Shown here: positions 50 to 45,979 of the stretch, piece after piece | Layout: every line of letters begins with the position of its first letter | Position numbering within the stretch: the first letter of the stretch is position 1 | Assembly (NCBI GenBank): GCA_902623075.1 | Contig: CACNSD010000004.1 | Location: 1-64,000 of the forward strand | From: an uncultured Pelagibacteraceae bacterium | Lineage (GTDB): Bacteria > Pseudomonadota > Alphaproteobacteria > Pelagibacterales > Pelagibacteraceae | Length of the DNA: 64,000 bases | Direction of reading: 5' to 3' | Notes under the pieces: generated by a model | Databases searched by the model: none | What the model was told of the DNA's origin: nothing | What the model saw: only the letters and a program-made list of their open reading frames with translations | Program-made: the position numbers and the translations under genes

Positions 50-643
50 ATGAAAATTTTAGACAGATATATTGAGAAAGAATATGACTATATGTTTAAA
101 GACAAGCGTATTGACGATGACTTTTTTAAAGCTAAACATCCTCCATATTACAAACCTAGTGGCAGCTTGATATTATCAAAAAGTTATTACCAATCATATC
201 ATAAGGAAGCTTTAGTCTTAGACCATGTTGAGAAAGTTATAAATGAAGTTACAGAAGTTTATTCGGGAAAATATCAATTAGGAAAAAAACATGGATATGG
301 AACAATCAAATATAAAAGTGGAGATATTTATAAAGGTGAATTTAAATACGATTTGTTTGATGGGGTTGGAGAGTATATTTGGGTAGATGGTTTAAGATAC
401 AAGGGTGATTGGAAGAACGGTAAGATGAATGGAAAAGGAACATTAACACAGCCCAGCGGTGAAAAATATTCAGGAGAATTTAAAGAGGATAAAAAGCATG
501 GCAAAGGATACTACATTAATCCCAACGGTACGACTTATGAGGGTGGTTTTAAAAATGATGTGTTCCATGGACAAGGTAAATTTATTGACGCCATGGGAAA
601 AGTAATAGAAGGAACTTTTAAAGAGGGTAAATTAATTAAATAG
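50..643 (+). CDS. MORN-repeat protein
   Basis: Residues 71 to the end are MORN repeats with an exact 23-residue period: the Tyr-x-Gly-x-Phe/Tyr/Trp repeat starts fall at residues 71, 94, 117, 140 and 163, with a degenerate sixth at 186. Residues 1-70 are a charged, Tyr-rich leader with no recognisable domain, and I see no signal peptide or membrane segment. MORN repeats are known as beta-hairpin modules in membrane- or protein-associated scaffolds; no enzymatic role follows from them. The next gene starts 45 bases downstream on the same strand and matches the C-terminal half of a second MORN protein at 2809-3555. The reading frame stays open from the ATG back to the window edge, so the true start could lie further upstream; no clear ribosome binding site precedes the ATG. 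Confidence 0.8.
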   Translation: MKILDRYIEKEYDYMFKDKRIDDDFFKAKHPPYYKPSGSLILSKSYYQSYHKEALVLDHVEKVINEVTEVYSGKYQLGKKHGYGTIKYKSGDIYKGEFKYDLFDGVGEYIWVDGLRYKGDWKNGKMNGKGTLTQPSGEKYSGEFKEDKKHGKGYYINPNGTTYEGGFKNDVFHGQGKFIDAMGKVIEGTFKEGKLIK

Positions 644-2808: not shown

Positions 2809-3555
2809 TCAATCGTATTTACCTTGATTAGCAACATATTTTTTCCAAACTTTATTTTTTCTAGTTTTTATGTAGTCTAGTGCTTGCTTTTTATCTTTAA
2901 ACTTTTTGTGAGAATAATATCCATCGTTTGTGTAATCATACCCTTGATAAATTAAAACATAATACATCTTGTTTATTTTAGAACTTATAACTTGATGTAC
3001 CAAATACTGTCTTTTTTCCTCATATTTATCAAAAATATCCTCAACAAAGTTTATTTTAATTAATTTAAAATTATCAGATATCATTGGTAAAAATTTTCCT
3101 GATGAAAATTCATCGTCAAATTTTTTATACATTTTTTTGTTTTCAAGAATTTCGTGAAATAAAACATCGCTATTATTTATTTTAGTACTACATGCCTCTA
3201 ATAAATTATAAAATATATCATTTTCATTACCCCAATCTCGAAAATTTTTATTTAAATGACTAATAAATTTTTTTAAATTGAGATGGTTTTGTAAATATTT
3301 TAAGTCGATGTTTTCATTTGCAATTCTATAAGTTTGAGATTTAAATTTGCCTTTAGACCAAACTGCTGACAGTTCTTCTCCACTAGCGTCTAAAAAAGTT
3401 CCTTTTCCATGCTTTTTATCATTTTCCCAATTACCAAAATACACCGAACCGTCTTTCCAAGTGTATGTTCCAAAACCATGTTTTTTATCTTTTTTTATTT
3501 CACCATGGTATTTATCACCATTGGTATAATTTATTGTTTGAAGTTTTTTCTTCAT
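2809..3555 (-). CDS. MORN-repeat protein fused to the 195-aa partner domain
   Basis: Residues about 10-70 hold two clear MORN repeats (Tyr16, Tyr39) and a degenerate third near residue 62, again with a 23-residue period. Residues about 82-230 form a second domain that matches the separate protein encoded at 689-1276 (Leu-Asn-Leu at 92-94, Ile-Ser-Asp-Asn-Phe-Lys-Leu at 159-165, Tyr-Leu-Val at 184-186). There is no signal peptide. It is the last of three co-directional minus-strand genes, 8 bases after the stop of the 311-aa gene. Function unknown; the domain fusion ties the MORN scaffold to this partner domain. Confidence 0.8.
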   Translation of the reverse strand: MKKKLQTINYTNGDKYHGEIKKDKKHGFGTYTWKDGSVYFGNWENDKKHGKGTFLDASGEELSAVWSKGKFKSQTYRIANENIDLKYLQNHLNLKKFISHLNKNFRDWGNENDIFYNLLEACSTKINNSDVLFHEILENKKMYKKFDDEFSSGKFLPMISDNFKLIKINFVEDIFDKYEEKRQYLVHQVISSKINKMYYVLIYQGYDYTNDGYYSHKKFKDKKQALDYIKTRKNKVWKKYVANQGKYD

Positions 3556-5621: not shown

Positions 5622-5698
5622 TGGTGGGCCCGCCAGGACTCGAACCTGGGACCAATACATTATGAGTGTACTGCTCTAACCAACTGAGCTACAGGCCC
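5622..5698 (-). tRNA. tRNA with CAT anticodon (tRNA-Ile2 or elongator tRNA-Met)
   Basis: A 77-base cloverleaf with encoded CCA (complement at 5622-5624). Acceptor GGGCCTG pairs with CGGGCCC (one G-T wobble). The D-arm is GCTC-AGTTGGTTA-GAGC with the normal GG. The anticodon stem GTACA/TGTAT encloses CTCATAA, giving CAT. The T-arm CCAGG-TTCGAGT-CCTGG is canonical. CAT is shared by Met tRNAs and by lysidine-modified tRNA-Ile2. The acceptor resembles alphaproteobacterial tRNA-Ile and has C4-G69, so I lean to Ile2; the sequence alone does not settle it. Initiator tRNA is unlikely because the anticodon stem lacks three G-C pairs. Confidence 0.95.
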
Positions 5699-5757: not shown

Positions 5758-5832
5758 TGGTGGGCCGTGTTGGTTACGCTCCAACTACCCCTGCAATGTC
5801 AATGCAGTACTCTACTATTGAGCTAACGGCCC
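5758..5832 (-). tRNA. tRNA-Val (GAC) with noncanonical D- and T-loops
   Basis: A 75-base cloverleaf with encoded CCA (complement at 5758-5760). Acceptor GGGCCGT pairs fully with ACGGCCC. The anticodon stem CTGCA/TGCAG encloses TTGACAT, giving GAC (Val). The variable loop has 5 bases. The D-loop is AATAGTA, lacking the usual GG pair, and the T-loop is AGCGTAA instead of TTCRANT, while the T-stem GTTGG/CCAAC is perfect. A swapped A54/T58 pair and one remaining D-loop G facing C56 might keep a variant elbow. All stems are intact, so I call it a gene and not a pseudogene. It starts 4 bases after the rpoD stop codon and may be cut from the rpoD transcript. Confidence 0.85.
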
Positions 5833-5836
5833 CAAA

Positions 5837-7660
5837 TTAACTTTCCAAGAAACTTTTTAATTGTTTTGATCTACTTGGGTGTTTAAGTTTTCGTAATGCC
5901 TTCGCTTCAATTTGTCTTATTCTTTCTCTTGTTACGGAAAACTGCAGTCCAACCTCCTCTAAAGTATGATCTGTATTCATTCCTACACCAAATCTCATTC
6001 TTAAAACTCTTTCCTCTCTTGGGGTTAAAGTTGATAGAATTTTTGTGGTAGCTTCCCCAAGATTAGATTTGATAGCTTGTTCCAAAGGAGCTAATGCTTT
6101 TGTATCTTCAATAAAATCTCCAAGACTACTGTCCTCCTCATCCCCAACTGGTTTTTCTAACGAAACTGGTTCTTTTGATATTTTTAGTACCTTTCTTACT
6201 TTGTCTAATGGCATTCTTAATTTTTGAGCTAATTCTTCAGGGGTAGCTTCTCTTCCAAATTCACTTAATATTAATCTTTGCGTTCTTACTATTTTATTAA
6301 TTGTTTCAATCATGTGAACAGGTATACGTATTGTTCTTGCTTGATCAGCAATAGATCTAGTAATCGCTTGTCTTATCCACCATGTTGCGTATGTAGAGAA
6401 TTTATATCCTCTTCTATATTCAAATTTATCCACTGCCTTCATTAATCCAATATTTCCTTCTTGAATAAGATCTAAAAATTGCAAACCTCTATTTGTATAT
6501 TTTTTTGCAATCGATATAACTAGTCTCAAGTTAGCTTCAACCATCTCTTTTTTAGCTATTCTTGATTCTTTCTCACCTTTTTGAATTCTGCTAACTAATT
6601 TTTTAAAATCAGTGACTGAAATACCCAGTTTATGACTAATTTCTATTAATCTTTCTCTTATATTTTTAAATTCTTCTTTGTTTTTTGAAAAAAATTGTTT
6701 CCAAGCTAAATTCGTATCAAGAAATTTTTTAAGATTTGGATTTATCTCGTTTCCAACATAAAATTTAATAAACTCATTCCTAGGTATTTTTTGATCCATA
6801 GCGAGTCTTAATAGATTACCTTCTAAAGATATAATCTTTTTGTTTTCTACATAATGCTTTTGGACTAGTTCTTCTAAAACAGATGGGGATAATTGAAGTG
6901 ATTTAATATTTTCTAATATATCATTAACTACTTTCTCATAACCTTTTTCTTTTGCATTTGAAAAAGTTTGAGAATTTAAAATACAATCCAATTTTTCTTT
7001 TTGATATTTAATTAATTTAGTATATTCTTTTGTTAGAGTATTTACGGTTTTAAGAACTTTGGGCTTGATTTCTGTTTCCATTGCTGCCAATGTAGGATTA
7101 AAATCGTCATCATCATCGGATGAGCCTTCTTCTTTATCAATTTCACCAGAATTTTTTTGCTTTGCGCTTGGTCCTGTAGTTTCATCTTCCATATAATTTG
7201 TGTCAATATCAATTATTTCTCTAACTAAAATTTCATCTTTTTGTAATTGCTCATTCCACTCAAAAAATTGTTGAGCCGTTATTGGGCTTTGAGAAAGTGC
7301 AATTAACATAACATCTTTTCCAGCCTCTATTCTTTTTGCGATAGCTATTTCACCTTCTCTTGATAGGAGCTCAACTCCTCCCATTTCTCTTAAATACATC
7401 CTTATCGGATCGTCACTTTTCTCGATTGTCTTACCCTCTTCTTTATTTGAATGTTCTTTTTTTCTTAGAACTTTAAAATCAGACTTTTTTTCAACAAGAG
7501 TGATATTTTCATTCAATATATGAATAAATGCTTGGGACAAATTTTCATCAGATAGATTTCTTTTTCCAAGAGACTTACTAAGCTCCTCATAAGTAATGAA
7601 ACCTCTATGGGTTCCTCTACCCATTAATCTAGCAAATGATTTTGTAATAATTCTTTCCAC
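5837..7660 (-). CDS. rpoD: RNA polymerase sigma factor RpoD (sigma-70)
   Basis: The main housekeeping sigma factor, 607 residues, close to the usual length. In order: an N-terminal region 1.1; region 1.2 ([11 protein letters not shown], near residue 85); an acidic insert with a run of Asp near 195; the conserved region 2 with the [15 protein letters not shown] core that reads and melts the -10 box; region 3; and region 4 with the helix-turn-helix [10 protein letters not shown] near the C-terminus. It lies after yqeY and dnaG on the same strand, the order common in alphaproteobacteria, with 67 bases between dnaG and rpoD. A tRNA-Val follows 4 bases after its stop. Confidence 0.98.
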
Positions 7661-7727: not shown

Positions 7728-9503
7728 TTAATTGAGATTCTGCTTTTTTTTTAGCTCTTTTAGCTCATTAAATGTAGCTTCGCTCATATCAACTGAAAAC
7801 CTCGATTCTAATTCTTGTATTCTGAACTCGAGATCATAATTCAATAAATCTCTTGAAATATCTTCTAATAGCTCAATTACTTTTTGCTCATCATTTTTCT
7901 GATTTTTAAAGATATGTTTAATTGAAGCAAATTTATTCACTTTTTCTATAAACTGATAATCTATATTTAAATCTTGGATAGAAATTTGATCATCAGATTT
8001 TAATTTTTTAATAATTGAATTGAATATTTTTTTATTCATCTCAGTAAATAGTTTAATATTTTCTATAAGATGGACATTTGCTTGTAACAAATTTAAATTA
8101 TTTAAAACCAAGTATAGTAAGGAAAATTCTTTTATTTCAACCCCAGTTAAAGACTTACTTTCATTAAAAAATTTTTTTGTACTTTCTAAAGACTTGGCTT
8201 TTTTAATATAAAAATTCTTCTTATTTTGATTAGAATGTGGGGTCAGCTCTGCAACTTTTTCTAAAAAATATTCTAACACATATTTTTTTATAAAATCATC
8301 TTTTATTGTACCAGCTATATTTCTAAGTTTTTTTTCAAAAATTGCCAGAGATGAAGGATTATTTTTTGTTTGTTTTTTATAATGATTAAAAATAAATTGA
8401 TGAATAGATATTTTGCTTTGCTTTGTAAATTCTACAAAGTTATTTTTTCCATTTTTATTTACATAGCTATCTGGATCCTCTTTATCTGGTAAGAATAAAA
8501 ATGAAATTTGTTTTTCAGGTTTTAATTCCTTTATTGAATTCTCGGCAGCTCTTAAGGCTGCTTTATAACCGCTTTCATCTCCATCAAAACAGATAATGGT
8601 ATCATCGAAAAACTGATTCAAAATTAAAATTTGTTTATCTGTCAACGAAGTCCCAAGATTTGCTACTGCATTATTAATTCCATTTTTAGATAGACCAACA
8701 ACATCCATATATCCTTCGACTAAATAAACATGGTCAATTTTGTTTGAGTGTTTCCTTGCTAAATCTAAATTATATAAATTTGATCCCTTTTTAAAAAAAG
8801 CAGTCTCTGGTGAATTAATATATTTTGCCAAATAATCTGAATTTTCAATAATTCTCCCCCCTAAAGCAATTGGTTGACCTGATATGTTATTGATTGGAAA
8901 AATTAATCGTCCCCTAAATCTTTCAATATATATTTTCTTTTTTTCATCTAAATAAAACAAGCCTGTATCGATTAAAGTTTGCTCACTATAATTTTCTTTT
9001 AATCTTTCAAAAAAATTTGGATTTTTATCAATATATCCAATTTTAAATTTTTTAACTTCTTCTTTATTTAAAGATCTTTTTTTTAAATATTCTCTTGCAA
9101 CTGAATAATTTTCATTTTTTAAAAGTTCATTATGATAAAAATTAACATACTGACTAAAAATAGATTTATACTCATTCCATTTTCTTTCTCTTTCTTCATC
9201 TTGTTTTGAAAACATATATGGCTGCATACCTGCTAGTTGAGCTAAATACTTTACAGCTTCACCAAATCTTAAATTTTGAGTTTTCATAATAAAATCAAAA
9301 ATATTGCCATGTTCAGATGTAGCAAAACAATGATAAAATTCTTTTTCATCATTAACTGTAAATGATGGTGTTTTTTCATTTTTAAAAGGTGACAAACCTA
9401 CAAATTCCTTACCTCTTTTTTTTAAGGAAACAGTTTTTGATACAACTGTTGAAACTTTTAGTCTATTTCTAATTTCATCAAGATACTCTTTTGGGTATTT
9501 CAT
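7728..9503 (-). CDS. dnaG: DNA primase
   Basis: Primase of the replication fork, 591 residues. The N-terminal zinc-ribbon domain is present but lacks most metal ligands: Ser38-Pro-Phe-Lys41 stands where Cys-Pro-Phe-His is usual, and Cys59-Phe-Ala-Thr62 where Cys-Phe-Gly-Cys is usual. The catalytic core follows, with the TOPRIM motifs Leu-Val-Glu-Gly-Tyr-Met-Asp-Val-Val near residue 265 and Phe-Asp-Gly-Asp-Glu-Ser-Gly near 308. The C-terminal 180 residues are the DnaB-interacting type, with low conservation. I recall degenerate ligands in other alphaproteobacterial DnaG proteins, so this may be a lineage trait. It overlaps the upstream yqeY stop by one base (TAATG) and precedes rpoD. Confidence 0.97.
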   Translation of the reverse strand: MKYPKEYLDEIRNRLKVSTVVSKTVSLKKRGKEFVGLSPFKNEKTPSFTVNDEKEFYHCFATSEHGNIFDFIMKTQNLRFGEAVKYLAQLAGMQPYMFSKQDEERERKWNEYKSIFSQYVNFYHNELLKNENYSVAREYLKKRSLNKEEVKKFKIGYIDKNPNFFERLKENYSEQTLIDTGLFYLDEKKKIYIERFRGRLIFPINNISGQPIALGGRIIENSDYLAKYINSPETAFFKKGSNLYNLDLARKHSNKIDHVYLVEGYMDVVGLSKNGINNAVANLGTSLTDKQILILNQFFDDTIICFDGDESGYKAALRAAENSIKELKPEKQISFLFLPDKEDPDSYVNKNGKNNFVEFTKQSKISIHQFIFNHYKKQTKNNPSSLAIFEKKLRNIAGTIKDDFIKKYVLEYFLEKVAELTPHSNQNKKNFYIKKAKSLESTKKFFNESKSLTGVEIKEFSLLYLVLNNLNLLQANVHLIENIKLFTEMNKKIFNSIIKKLKSDDQISIQDLNIDYQFIEKVNKFASIKHIFKNQKNDEQKVIELLEDISRDLLNYDLEFRIQELESRFSVDMSEATFNELKELKKKQNLN

Positions 9504-11287: not shown

Positions 11288-14200
11288 GAAAATATTAGTA
11301 GTAGGTGCTGGCCCAATAATAATAGGCCAAGCTTGTGAGTTTGATTATTCTGGTACTCAAGCATGCAAAGCTCTAAAAGACGAGGGGTATAAAGTAGTTT
11401 TAATAAACTCAAATCCAGCAACAATTATGACAGATCCAGATGTTGCAGATAAAACCTACATTGAGCCTATAACATTACTTGTTTTAGAAAAAATTCTTAA
11501 AAAAGAAAAACCGGATGCGATTTTACCGACGATGGGAGGTCAGACGGCACTTAATCTTGCAATGGAAGCTGAAAAAAAAGGAATTTTAAAAAAATACAAA
11601 ATTGAATTAATTGGTGCAAATTCGAAAGCAATTTCCAATGCTGAAGATAGGAAAAAATTTAGAAAAAATATGATAGATATTGGTTTAGATTTACCAAAAT
11701 CTGAAATTGTAAATAGTAACAACCAGGCTGCAAAAGTATTAAGAAAAATTGGTTTACCAGCAATCATAAGACCTGCATTTACATTGGGTGGGCTTGGAGG
11801 GGGAATTGCTAAAAATAAAAAAGATTATTTCAAAATCATAAAAAATGGATTGCACGAGTCACCTGTAAGCCAAGTTCTTGTTGAAGAGTGTTTAGAGGGA
11901 TGGAAAGAATTTGAAATGGAAGTTGTTAGAGATAAGAAAGATAATTGTATTATTATTTGCTCTATAGAAAATGTCGACCCGATGGGTATCCATACTGGTG
12001 ACTCTGTAACTGTAGCCCCAGCACTTACATTGACTGATAAGGAATATCAAGTAATGAGAAATGCGTCTATTGCCTGTCTTAGAAAAATTGGAGTTGAAAC
12101 TGGTGGATCAAATGTACAGTTTGCAATAAATCCTAAAAATGGACGAATGGTTGTGATAGAAATGAATCCTCGTGTATCCAGATCTTCTGCTCTAGCTTCT
12201 AAAGCAACTGGTTTCCCAATTGCAAAAGTTGCCGCAAAGCTTGCTGTTGGTTATACGTTGGATGAATTAAAAAACGAAATAACTAAGGTTACTCCTGCCT
12301 CTTTTGAACCGACCATAGATTATGTAGTAACTAAAATTCCTAGATTTACTTTTGAAAAATTTTCAACATCTCCAGCCACGTTAGGAACTTCTATGAAATC
12401 AGTTGGTGAAGCAATGGCCATTGGTAGAAACTTCAAAGAATCTCTTCAAAAAGCATTAGTATCCTTAGAGACTGGTTTTTCGGGATTAGATAGAATATTC
12501 AATCTAAACAAAAAACAAATAGAAAAAAAACTTAAAGAAAATATCCCAAATAAATTACTCCTTGTTGCAGAAGCAATTCGTAAGAAAATTAATTTAAAAA
12601 GAATTTATGCTTTATCAAAAATTGACCCATGGTTTTTAGAGCAAATAAAAGAAATAGTAGACAATGAACTAAAAATTAAAATGAAAGGTTTGCCTAAAAA
12701 TTTTGTTGAATTCAATAGAATAAAATCTATAGGTTTCTCTGACAAAAAACTTTCCGAACTTACTAAAATTTCAGAGAAGATTATTAGAAAAAAAAGAACT
12801 GCACTAAAAATCTTACCTGTATATAAAAAAGTCGATACCTGCGCTGCAGAATTTAAATCCTTCACACCTTATATGTATTCAACATATCAACGAAATTTCT
12901 CAATTAATTCAGAGTGTGAAGCAAATCCGTCACTAAGAAAAAAAATAATTATTTTAGGTGGTGGTCCTAATAGGATTGGTCAAGGTATTGAGTTTGACTA
13001 TTGCTGTTGTCAGGCAAGTTTTTCCCTAAAAAAAAGAGGTTTTGAGACGATAATGGTTAACTGCAACCCAGAAACAGTTTCAACAGATTATGACACAAGT
13101 GATAGACTTTACTTTGAACCACTAATTGAGGAATACGTTTTTAATATAATTAAAAAAGAGCAAGAAAAGGGAAATCTCCTTGGGATTATTGCTCAATTTG
13201 GTGGGCAAACTCCCATACGACTTGCAAAATTTTTACATGATAACAATCTTCCTATTTTAGGAACACAATATACCTCAATTGATTTAGCTGAAGATAGAGA
13301 TCGATTTCGAAATTTATTAAATAAACTTAAATTAAAACAAGCGGAGAGTGGAATTGCTAAAACGTTTAAACAAGCAATTAATATCTCAGAAAAAATTGGC
13401 TTGCCACTAATGGTAAGACCATCTTATGTGCTTGGAGGAAGAGCTATGGAGATTGTATATGAAAAAAATCAACTTAAAAAATTTGTAGAAGAGGCTTTTA
13501 AAGCAGCCGATGATAATCCTATTTTAATCGATAAATTTATTAATCAGGCAATGGAAGTTGATGTTGACGCAATCTCTGATGGAAAACAAGTGCATGTTGC
13601 TGGAATCATGCAGCATATAGAAGAAGCTGGTATTCACTCAGGAGACTCTGCATGCAGTTTACCGCCAGTGTCTATAAAACCCTACTTAATTAAAGAAATC
13701 GAAAATCAAACCAAAAAACTTGCGCTTGCTCTTAAAGTAAAAGGCTTCATGAATATTCAATATGCAATAAAAAAAGATAAAATTTATGTGATTGAGGTTA
13801 ACCCAAGAGCAAGTAGAACGGTACCATTTGTATCTAAAGCAAAAGGTTTACCACTAGCAAAGATTGCATCAAGAGTAATGGCTGGTGAAAAATTATCAAA
13901 ATTTAATTTGAAAGATAAATCTAAAGGAATGTACGCAGTTAAAGAGGCTGTGTTTCCTTTTAATAAATTTCCAAATAGTGATCTACTTTTAGGTCCAGAA
14001 ATGAAGTCCACTGGTGAGGTAATGGGCTTTGACAAAAATTTTGGAATGGCATTTGCTAAAAGTCAAATAGCAGCATCAAATTCATTACCTAAAGACGGTC
14101 TAGCATTTATTTCTCTCAAAAACTCGCACAAAGATGAAGGAATAGATTTAGCTAAAGAACTTATTAAATTAAAATTCACCTTATGTGCAACTAAAGGAAC

Positions 14201-40874: not shown

Positions 40875-40948
40875 TGGCTGGGGCGCTAGGATTCGAACCT
40901 AGGATGCAGGTACCAAAAACCCGTGCCTTACCGCTTGGCTACGCCCCA
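40875..40948 (-). tRNA. tRNA-Gln (TTG)
   Basis: A 74-base cloverleaf with encoded CCA. Acceptor TGGGGCG/CGCCCCA, anticodon loop TTTTGGT (anticodon TTG), discriminator G and the weak first pair typical of glutamine tRNA, and canonical T-loop TTCGAAT. It directly precedes cca. Confidence 0.96.
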
Positions 40949-44843: not shown

Positions 44844-44896
44844 GAATCCAAATTTTTCAATCTGAGGTTGACCATAGAATCCATTTGGAGTCTAAT
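44844..44896 (+). promoter_or_regulatory. ccrM promoter with three GANTC sites
   Basis: -35 TTGACC (44868-44873), 17 bases, -10 TCTAAT (44891-44896), then 12 bases to the ATG. GANTC sites lie at 44844-44848 (upstream of -35), 44877-44881 (inside the spacer) and 44888-44892 (overlapping the first two -10 bases). In Caulobacter the ccrM promoter also carries GANTC sites whose methylation affects expression, so self-control is plausible here. Confidence 0.6.
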
Positions 44897-44908
44897 TAAT
44901 CTTTACAA

Positions 44909-45979
44909 ATGAAAACTGATTTTAAAAATAAAATAATTAATGGAGATAGTCTTGAGGAATTAAAAAAAATTCCACGTGAAACATTTGATTTAATTTTTGC
45001 TGATCCACCTTACAACTTACAATTAAAAAGTGAATTAACAAGACCGGATAGATCAAAAGTAAGTGCAGTAAATGATAAGTGGGATCAATTTGCAAATTTT
45101 AAAAAATATGATCATTTCACTTATGCATGGCTTAGTGAATGTAAAAGAATTTTAAAAAAAGATGGAGCAATATGGGTTATAGGAAGTTATCATAATATTT
45201 TTAGAGTTGGAACAGCAATCCAAAATTTAGGATTCTGGATTTTAAACGATGTCATTTGGAATAAAAATAATCCAATGCCTAACTTTAGAGGAACACGTTT
45301 TACTAACGCTCATGAAACTTTAATATGGGCATCTAAAAGTGAAAAATCTAAATACACATTCAATTATCAATCTTTAAAATGTTTAAATGATGATTTACAA
45401 ATGAGATCTAATTGGGATCTTCCAATATGCAATGGTTCTGAAAGACTTAAAAAGGATGGAAAAAAAATTCACTCTACACAAAAACCAGAAGCATTATTAC
45501 ATAGAATTTTACTAGCTACATCTAATAAAAATGACCTCATACTTGATCCTTTTTTAGGATCAGGAACAACAGCTACGGTAGCAAAAAAACTAGGAAGAAA
45601 TTATTTTGGAATAGAAAAAGAAAAAAATTATTTTAAAGCTGCTAAGCAACGATTAAAGAATACAAAACCTATTGAGGACGATTTGTTAGATACGCTTAAA
45701 AATAATAGATCAAAACCAAGAATTCCTTTTGGTTCACTAGTAGAGCTTGGAATAATTAAACCTGGAACAAATATTTTTGATAATAAGAAAAAAATAACAG
45801 CCAGAATTATGGCTGATGGTAGTATAAAACATAATCAAGCAGAGGGATCTATACACAAAGTTGCGGCTACTATTTTAGGAGCTGAAAGTTGCAATGGATG
45901 GACTTTTTGGCACTATGATATCAATGGAAGAACCTATCCAATAAATCATCTAAGACAAAGATTAATTTCTAAAAACTAA
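44909..45979 (+). CDS. ccrM: Adenine DNA methyltransferase, CcrM type (GANTC)
   Basis: Beta-class N6-adenine methyltransferase, 356 residues. Catalytic Asp-Pro-Pro-Tyr-Asn-Leu near residues 31-36, the SAM motif Asp-Pro-Phe-Leu-Gly-Ser-Gly-Thr-Thr near 212, and the C-terminal CcrM-type domain of about 90 residues (Gly-x-Ile-x-Pro-Gly-x3-Phe, Ala-Asp-Gly-Ser-Ile). No restriction gene is next to it. CcrM marks newly replicated DNA and times transcription in alphaproteobacteria. Its TAA overlaps the TAG of the convergent flavoprotein gene by 4 bases. Confidence 0.95.
   Translation: MKTDFKNKIINGDSLEELKKIPRETFDLIFADPPYNLQLKSELTRPDRSKVSAVNDKWDQFANFKKYDHFTYAWLSECKRILKKDGAIWVIGSYHNIFRVGTAIQNLGFWILNDVIWNKNNPMPNFRGTRFTNAHETLIWASKSEKSKYTFNYQSLKCLNDDLQMRSNWDLPICNGSERLKKDGKKIHSTQKPEALLHRILLATSNKNDLILDPFLGSGTTATVAKKLGRNYFGIEKEKNYFKAAKQRLKNTKPIEDDLLDTLKNNRSKPRIPFGSLVELGIIKPGTNIFDNKKKITARIMADGSIKHNQAEGSIHKVAATILGAESCNGWTFWHYDINGRTYPINHLRQRLISKN

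Follow-up and report, generated by a model that had tools for sequence, protein, structure and literature searches.

A probable alternative A18/G55 elbow contact in a probably functional tRNA-Val(GAC) of Pelagibacteraceae

The tRNA-Val(GAC) gene found in a 64,000-nucleotide stretch of DNA (the window) from an uncultured Pelagibacteraceae bacterium most likely encodes a functional elongator tRNA whose elbow is held by an alternative tertiary contact; from its sequence and those of its relatives, this reading is given a probability of roughly 0.78. The canonical G18·Ψ55 contact is changed to A18·G55 and the canonical T54·A58 to A54·U58. The canonical G19-C56 pair is retained, so that the elbow has been re-paired and not lost. 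The relevant features of the window are the following.

5758..5832, minus strand: tRNA-Val(GAC) gene with encoded CCA (ARAGORN, Rfam RF00005, fold and conservation)
5813..5819, minus strand: D-loop AATAGTA, with A18 at 5816, G19 at 5815 and A15 at 5818 (sequence; key bases invariant in divergent copies)
5774..5780, minus strand: T-loop AGCGTAA, with A54 at 5780, G55 at 5779, C56 at 5778, G57 at 5777 and U58 at 5776 (sequence; no change at positions 54-58 or 60 among the 7 distinct variants)
5786, minus strand: A48, the Levitt position facing A15, a non-canonical A-A combination (sequence)
5837..7660, minus strand: rpoD, primary sigma factor, directly upstream of the tRNA-Val gene (ORF)
5622..5698, minus strand: CAU tRNA with a canonical elbow, internal control (ARAGORN)
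40875..40948, minus strand: tRNA-Gln(UUG) with a canonical elbow, internal control (ARAGORN)

The gene is recognized by the Rfam model RF00005 at 5758-5832 on the minus strand with a score of 53.6 bits (cut-off 29), in agreement with the ARAGORN call. Its sequence, read 5' to 3', is GGGCCGT TA GCTC AATAGTA GAGT A CTGCA TTGACAT TGCAG GGGTA GTTGG AGCGTAA CCAAC ACGGCCC ACCA. The minimum-free-energy fold is the cloverleaf (-28.6 kcal/mol, z -3.3), with a single G10-U25 wobble. The four paired stems and the encoded CCA had been recognized already in the sequence-only reading of the window. Other characteristics of a functional tRNA are a 7-bp acceptor stem, U8/A14 and an Rfam score above the curated cut-off. 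The valine identity bases A35, C36, and A73 are present.

The 5' end of the tRNA lies 4 nt past the rpoD stop codon (window 5832-5839), and the tRNA is therefore probably processed from the rpoD transcript. In most members of the genus the tail of rpoD is located 0-21 nt upstream of tRNA-Val, so that the rpoD mRNA may owe its 3' end to RNase P cleavage. Genes other than rpoD occupy the upstream position in several genomes. The neighboring CAU tRNA has a 3' partial copy elsewhere in the genome (L019, G000:C14:5096-5153), a pattern typical of integration into a tRNA gene. The window also contains a bablM sRNA (71.8 bits in Rfam) at 44844-44912 on the plus strand, and two predicted proteins, at 50-643 (plus strand) and 2809-3555 (minus strand), with repeated YxGxxxxxxxGxG-type (MORN-like) motifs recognized by eye.

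In tRNA numbering, the D-loop comprises A14, A15, U16, A18, G19, U20, and A21, and the T-loop A54, G55, C56, G57, U58, A59, and A60. The D-loop had been described as devoid of G18-G19; G18 is indeed gone, but G19 is still there, as is C56, with which it pairs. The proposed swap of positions 54 and 58 to A54/U58 is confirmed by the sequence, as is the joint change of the contact partners in the two loops, A18 with G55. The two other tRNAs of the window have canonical elbows, as had been stated, but non-canonical elbows occur elsewhere in the genome. Nor is tRNA-Val(GAC) a single odd tRNA, since the A18/G55 combination is shared by Phe, Thr(GGT), and His(GTG) tRNAs in the same or related genomes, and by many viral and some other bacterial tRNAs.

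The altered elbow is a conserved character of the genus. The same 75 nt were found in 38 of the 60 other sampled genomes of the genus (about 38 species), two further genomes differ by one base, and others are more divergent. Among the 7 distinct tRNA-Val variants, A18, G19, A54 to U58, and A60 are all fixed, and the loops vary only at positions 16 and 59; the divergent variants that keep the elbow bases include L203 and G133, both of a sister-genus type. Compensatory changes occur at 11 of the 21 stem pairs, the acceptor, anticodon, and T stems being altered on both strands of the pair, and 100% of the cells remain paired. Near-identity within the genus, compensated stems, unbroken pairing, and a fixed elbow rule out a sequencing error and a decaying copy or pseudogene. 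The presence of canonical loops at this locus in relatives had been expected to signal such artifacts. One relative, G037, does carry canonical loops in a tRNA-Val gene otherwise nearly identical to the variant, but it is the sole case seen within the genus, where the large majority have the variant.

Other tRNAs of these bacteria have undergone similar changes. The only tRNA-Phe of the window's genome, tRNA-Phe(GAA), is of the A18/G55 form (D-loop AGGAGTA, T-loop TGCGAAT), and its tRNA-Thr(GGT) carries G54 and G58 together with a 4-nt variable loop (L017, G000:C2:46950-47130). In the complete genome G012 the Phe, Val(GAC), and Thr(GGT) tRNAs have A18/G55, and the remaining tRNAs have G18/U55. 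As tRNA-Phe(GAA) is the sole Phe tRNA found in this 100% complete genome, the A18/G55 elbow must work in translation, and tRNA-Val(GAC) itself is probably active as well; a tRNA-Val(UAC) is also present in the genus. In the tRNA-Phe variants, too, the stem changes are fully compensated and the elbow bases do not vary. Ten Pelagibacteraceae contigs encode tRNA-His(GUG) with A18/G55, in three 54/58 forms (AGCGTAA, GGCAGAA, and TGCAATT). The tRNA-Thr(GGT) is unusually variable across SAR11; in L197, L216, and L251 it has the T-loop TTAGATT, with A56, and the D-loop TAGTGTTA, perhaps forming a U19-A56 pair.

The distribution of the variant was assessed by pattern scans, which detect only tRNAs with a GCTC/GAG D-stem and an encoded CCA. 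A pattern requiring G55 and allowing G or A at position 18 matched in 55 of 117 genomes of the SAR11 order, and all the G55 tRNAs thus detected carried A18; G18 did not occur among them. These matches were confined to the window's genus (g1), genera g8 and g9, and one genome of g7, while the same scan gave no G55 match in 53 genomes of the family f2. The tRNA-Phe is canonical in the sister genera g5, g6, g7, and g10-g12 and in f2, where seen, and canonical loops are found in the SAR11 genera outside the g1/g8/g9 clade and in the other alphaproteobacteria sampled. In a class-level sample (240 genomes of 202 genera), A18 in this D-arm type was observed only in the window's genus. In bacteria and archaea at large (one genome per species), most of the matches listed belong to Pelagibacteraceae and a minority to Nostoc, Verrucomicrobia, Chloroflexi, Omnitrophota, Clostridia, and CPR groups. 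The exceptional g7 genome (G155) carries a g1-type tRNA-Val on an 11-kb contig, with adjoining genes other than rpoD (L103, G155:C26); this copy possibly represents contamination or transfer. Arrays of about 10-14 tRNAs, many of them non-canonical, occur at the loci L204, L152, L163, and L209, on contigs placed in Verrucomicrobia and other groups. Near the array of L204 lies a gene for a TROVE (Ro60-like) protein.

The coupling of positions 18 and 55 is best seen in viral tRNAs. Pattern scans of the viral collection revealed A18/G55 in at least 120 stretches, with many anticodons; complete scans for the mixed states yielded 4 stretches with G18/G55 and 12 with A18/U55, of which several make poor tRNAs. 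A structural scanner that is blind to the loops and uses fixed registers detected 710 tRNAs in viral contigs; reversed controls gave none. After removal of the pattern-selected tRNAs, 584 with G or A at 18 and U or G at 55 remained, spanning over 30 anticodons: 506 G18/U55, 74 A18/G55, 2 A18/U55, and 2 G18/G55, some of the few mixed calls being register-ambiguous (Fisher p 6e-89, computed without correction for relatedness). The scanned contigs were those picked for a listed elbow state, and the coupling is therefore informative but the frequencies are not. Altogether the A18/G55 viral tRNAs have 34 anticodons, and all 165 carry a purine at position 57. At 54/58 they have U-A, G-G or A-U, the window tRNA belonging to the A-U class; a viral tRNA-Val(GAC) on L309 has the same T-loop, AGCGTAA. 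Two viral contigs are almost wholly of the variant type (12 of 13 and 10 of 11 detected tRNAs). Many of the G54/G58 forms were missed by ARAGORN and recovered by the loop-blind scan, so that tRNAs of the A18/G55 type may be under-annotated.

The cultured phages DLP_6, Atu_ph07, DSS3_MAL1, and Kenrey are similar to one viral A18/G55 tRNA-Gly, but their examined tRNAs are G18/U55; none of these phages showed the trait. Stenotrophomonas phage DLP_6 (L391) has tRNAs with the T-loops ATCGTTA, ATCGTTC, and ATCGATA at 8549-8621, 12803-12873, and 14052-14122, with normal U55. The 54/58 change is thus possible without the 18/55 change.

The clade carrying the variant appears to have lost the Ψ55 synthase TruB. 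A search with the profile TIGR00431 found no TruB in the 57 sampled genomes of the three variant-bearing genera (49/49 of g1 and 8/8 of g8 and g9). Outside these genera it was found in 49 of 60 genomes (7/7 of g5-g7 and 42/53 of f2), the f2 genomes without a match being mostly incomplete assemblies, which weakens the absence calls. Over all 117 genomes, 54 have the variant and no TruB, one (G155) has both, 48 have TruB and no variant, and 14 have neither. The gene order infB-rbfA-truB-rpsO-pnp is present in G105; in G012, G103, and G148 rbfA is followed directly by rpsO (with 7 nt between the two in G012). This clean junction indicates that truB was deleted rather than missed by the search. 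The loss was probably a single event in the clade, and the correlation between TruB and the variant does not represent independent trials. For TrmA and TrmFO, the 15 genomes tested gave no match above the cut-off, only sub-threshold matches to related families. The suggestion that TrmA and TruB would have no T54/T55 target holds insofar as tRNA-Val can receive neither T54 nor Ψ55, but no gene for TruB, TrmA, or TrmFO was found in this genome. TruB requires a GUUYRANYC T-arm (PMC7912444), and G55 tRNAs are thus no substrates anyway. Outside SAR11, TruB is present in 9 of 15 tested genomes carrying an A18/G55 tRNA, in several of which such tRNAs sit in multi-tRNA arrays; all 4 CPR genomes whose tRNA-His is A18/G55 gave no match.

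Normally, U55 forms the U-turn of the elbow and G18 intercalates between positions 57 and 58 and bonds to Ψ55 (PMC4810234). Many T-loops of rRNAs and riboswitches are of the UGNRA type, in which an A from outside commonly joins the G to form a composite GNRA tetraloop (PMC2258182), and the FMN riboswitch contains a split GNRA with an intercalating A between the triloop residues (PMC12550061). By analogy, in tRNA-Val the turn would be made by G55-C56-R57, with A18 of the D-loop intercalating to supply the fourth base and complete a composite GNRA tetraloop. A18 takes the place of G18, and G55 that of U55 (Ψ55); G19-C56 is kept as the outer pair, which the ribosome, RNase P, and others recognize. 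A GNRA-like geometry, in which the intercalated A would adopt a sheared G-A arrangement, is most likely in view of the sequence coupling and the riboswitch and rRNA precedents, and would explain the association of G55 with A18 and of U55 with G18. Such an elbow could not be modified to T54-Ψ55 and presumably has no need of Ψ55. The switch would have taken place in several SAR11 tRNAs (Val, Phe, Thr-GGT, and His) within the clade that lost truB, and the loss of Ψ55 may have favored it. Most tRNAs of the TruB-less genomes remain G18/U55, so this loss does not force the switch.

With the canonical bacterial elongator, tRNA-Val shares the cloverleaf, U8/A14, G19-C56, a purine at 57, the 7-nt T-loop, and CCA, whereas A18-G55, A54-U58 (in place of the trans Watson-Crick/Hoogsteen pair U54-A58), A15-A48, and the impossibility of T54 or Ψ55 set it apart. 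The UGNRA T-loop, or type R1 lonepair triloop (PMC2258182), resembles it in having G at the second and a purine at the fourth position (G55 and G57 in Val) and an A supplied from elsewhere; as expected for that motif, the outside A covaries with the G. SAR11 Phe (UGCGA) and SAR11 Thr (UGCAA) match the UGNRA consensus exactly, the outside A being A18. The closing U-A is present in Phe and Thr, but is A-U in Val and G-G in some others, and Val fits the consensus incompletely. In the open-access literature no description of a UGNRA-type T-loop in a tRNA elbow was found, nor any paper dealing with A18 and G55 together in tRNAs. Mitochondrial type II tRNAs likewise lack G18-G19 and the T-Ψ-C consensus (PMC7609411), and the sequence-only reading had likened tRNA-Val to mitochondrial tRNAs; this likeness fails, because type II tRNAs lose the D/T contact, whereas SAR11 Val has a specific replacement under selection. 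Elbow loss of the mitochondrial type is ruled out by the coupled, conserved 18/55 and the kept 19-56. Like Val, tRNA-Pyl is functional without T-Ψ-C and G18-G19 motifs, but its short D-loop, lack of G19-C56, and long anticodon stem have no counterpart in Val. The eukaryotic initiator tRNA has A54 in common with Val, but is not an elongator and keeps A58 and the G18 contact.

It is unlikely that the elbow simply drifted, near-neutrally and with no alternative fold selected, after truB was lost from a streamlined genome. Relaxed constraint would accord with the lack of all T54 and Ψ55 enzymes and with the other elbow changes in SAR11, such as G54/G58 in Thr(GGT), or A56 with a different D-loop in L197, L216, and L251. 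However, drift predicts mixed 18/55 states, of which almost none are seen; the elbow loops rank with the best conserved columns, and the coupled swap recurs in unrelated genomes, many of them with TruB, and in viral contigs. Replacement of the native Val, Phe, and His genes by phage-derived ones is improbable to a slightly greater degree. The frequency of A18/G55 tRNAs in viral contigs and the T-loop shared with L309 could be read in its favor, but the window tRNA has no similar phage record by BLAST, the canonical tRNA-Val of G037 is the same as the variant in the acceptor stem, D-stem, and anticodon arm, and the canonical Phe of sister genera has the same anticodon arm as the variant Phe. 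These shared arms point to a change within the existing genes.

That the gene is a decaying or non-translational tRNA-like element, such as a regulatory structure ending the rpoD mRNA, is very improbable, in spite of its start so close to the rpoD stop and the possible dispensability of GAC in a genus having Val(UAC). It is contradicted by the perfect cloverleaf with its CCA, by the compensated stem changes, and by the near-identity of the gene throughout the genus, as well as by the upstream context, which varies among genomes, and by the same elbow in the essential tRNA-Phe. A functional tRNA-Val with a re-paired elbow thus remains the preferred reading.

Ψ55 and its contact with G18 have been called universally conserved in reviews (PMC4810234, PMC7912444). 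Tentatively, and with somewhat less than even confidence, A18-G55 could be regarded as a second general way of building the elbow of bacterial and phage tRNAs: a composite GNRA stable without Ψ55 and T54 would let truB-losing lineages shift essential tRNAs one by one and let phage tRNAs fold regardless of the modification enzymes of the host. A very abundant group of ocean bacteria appears to live without a Ψ55 synthase and to rely on a different elbow in at least one essential tRNA (Phe), and the A18/G55 swap is also found in many viral tRNAs. The long-standing question of the role of Ψ55 and G18, and of their possible substitutes, thereby becomes directly testable.
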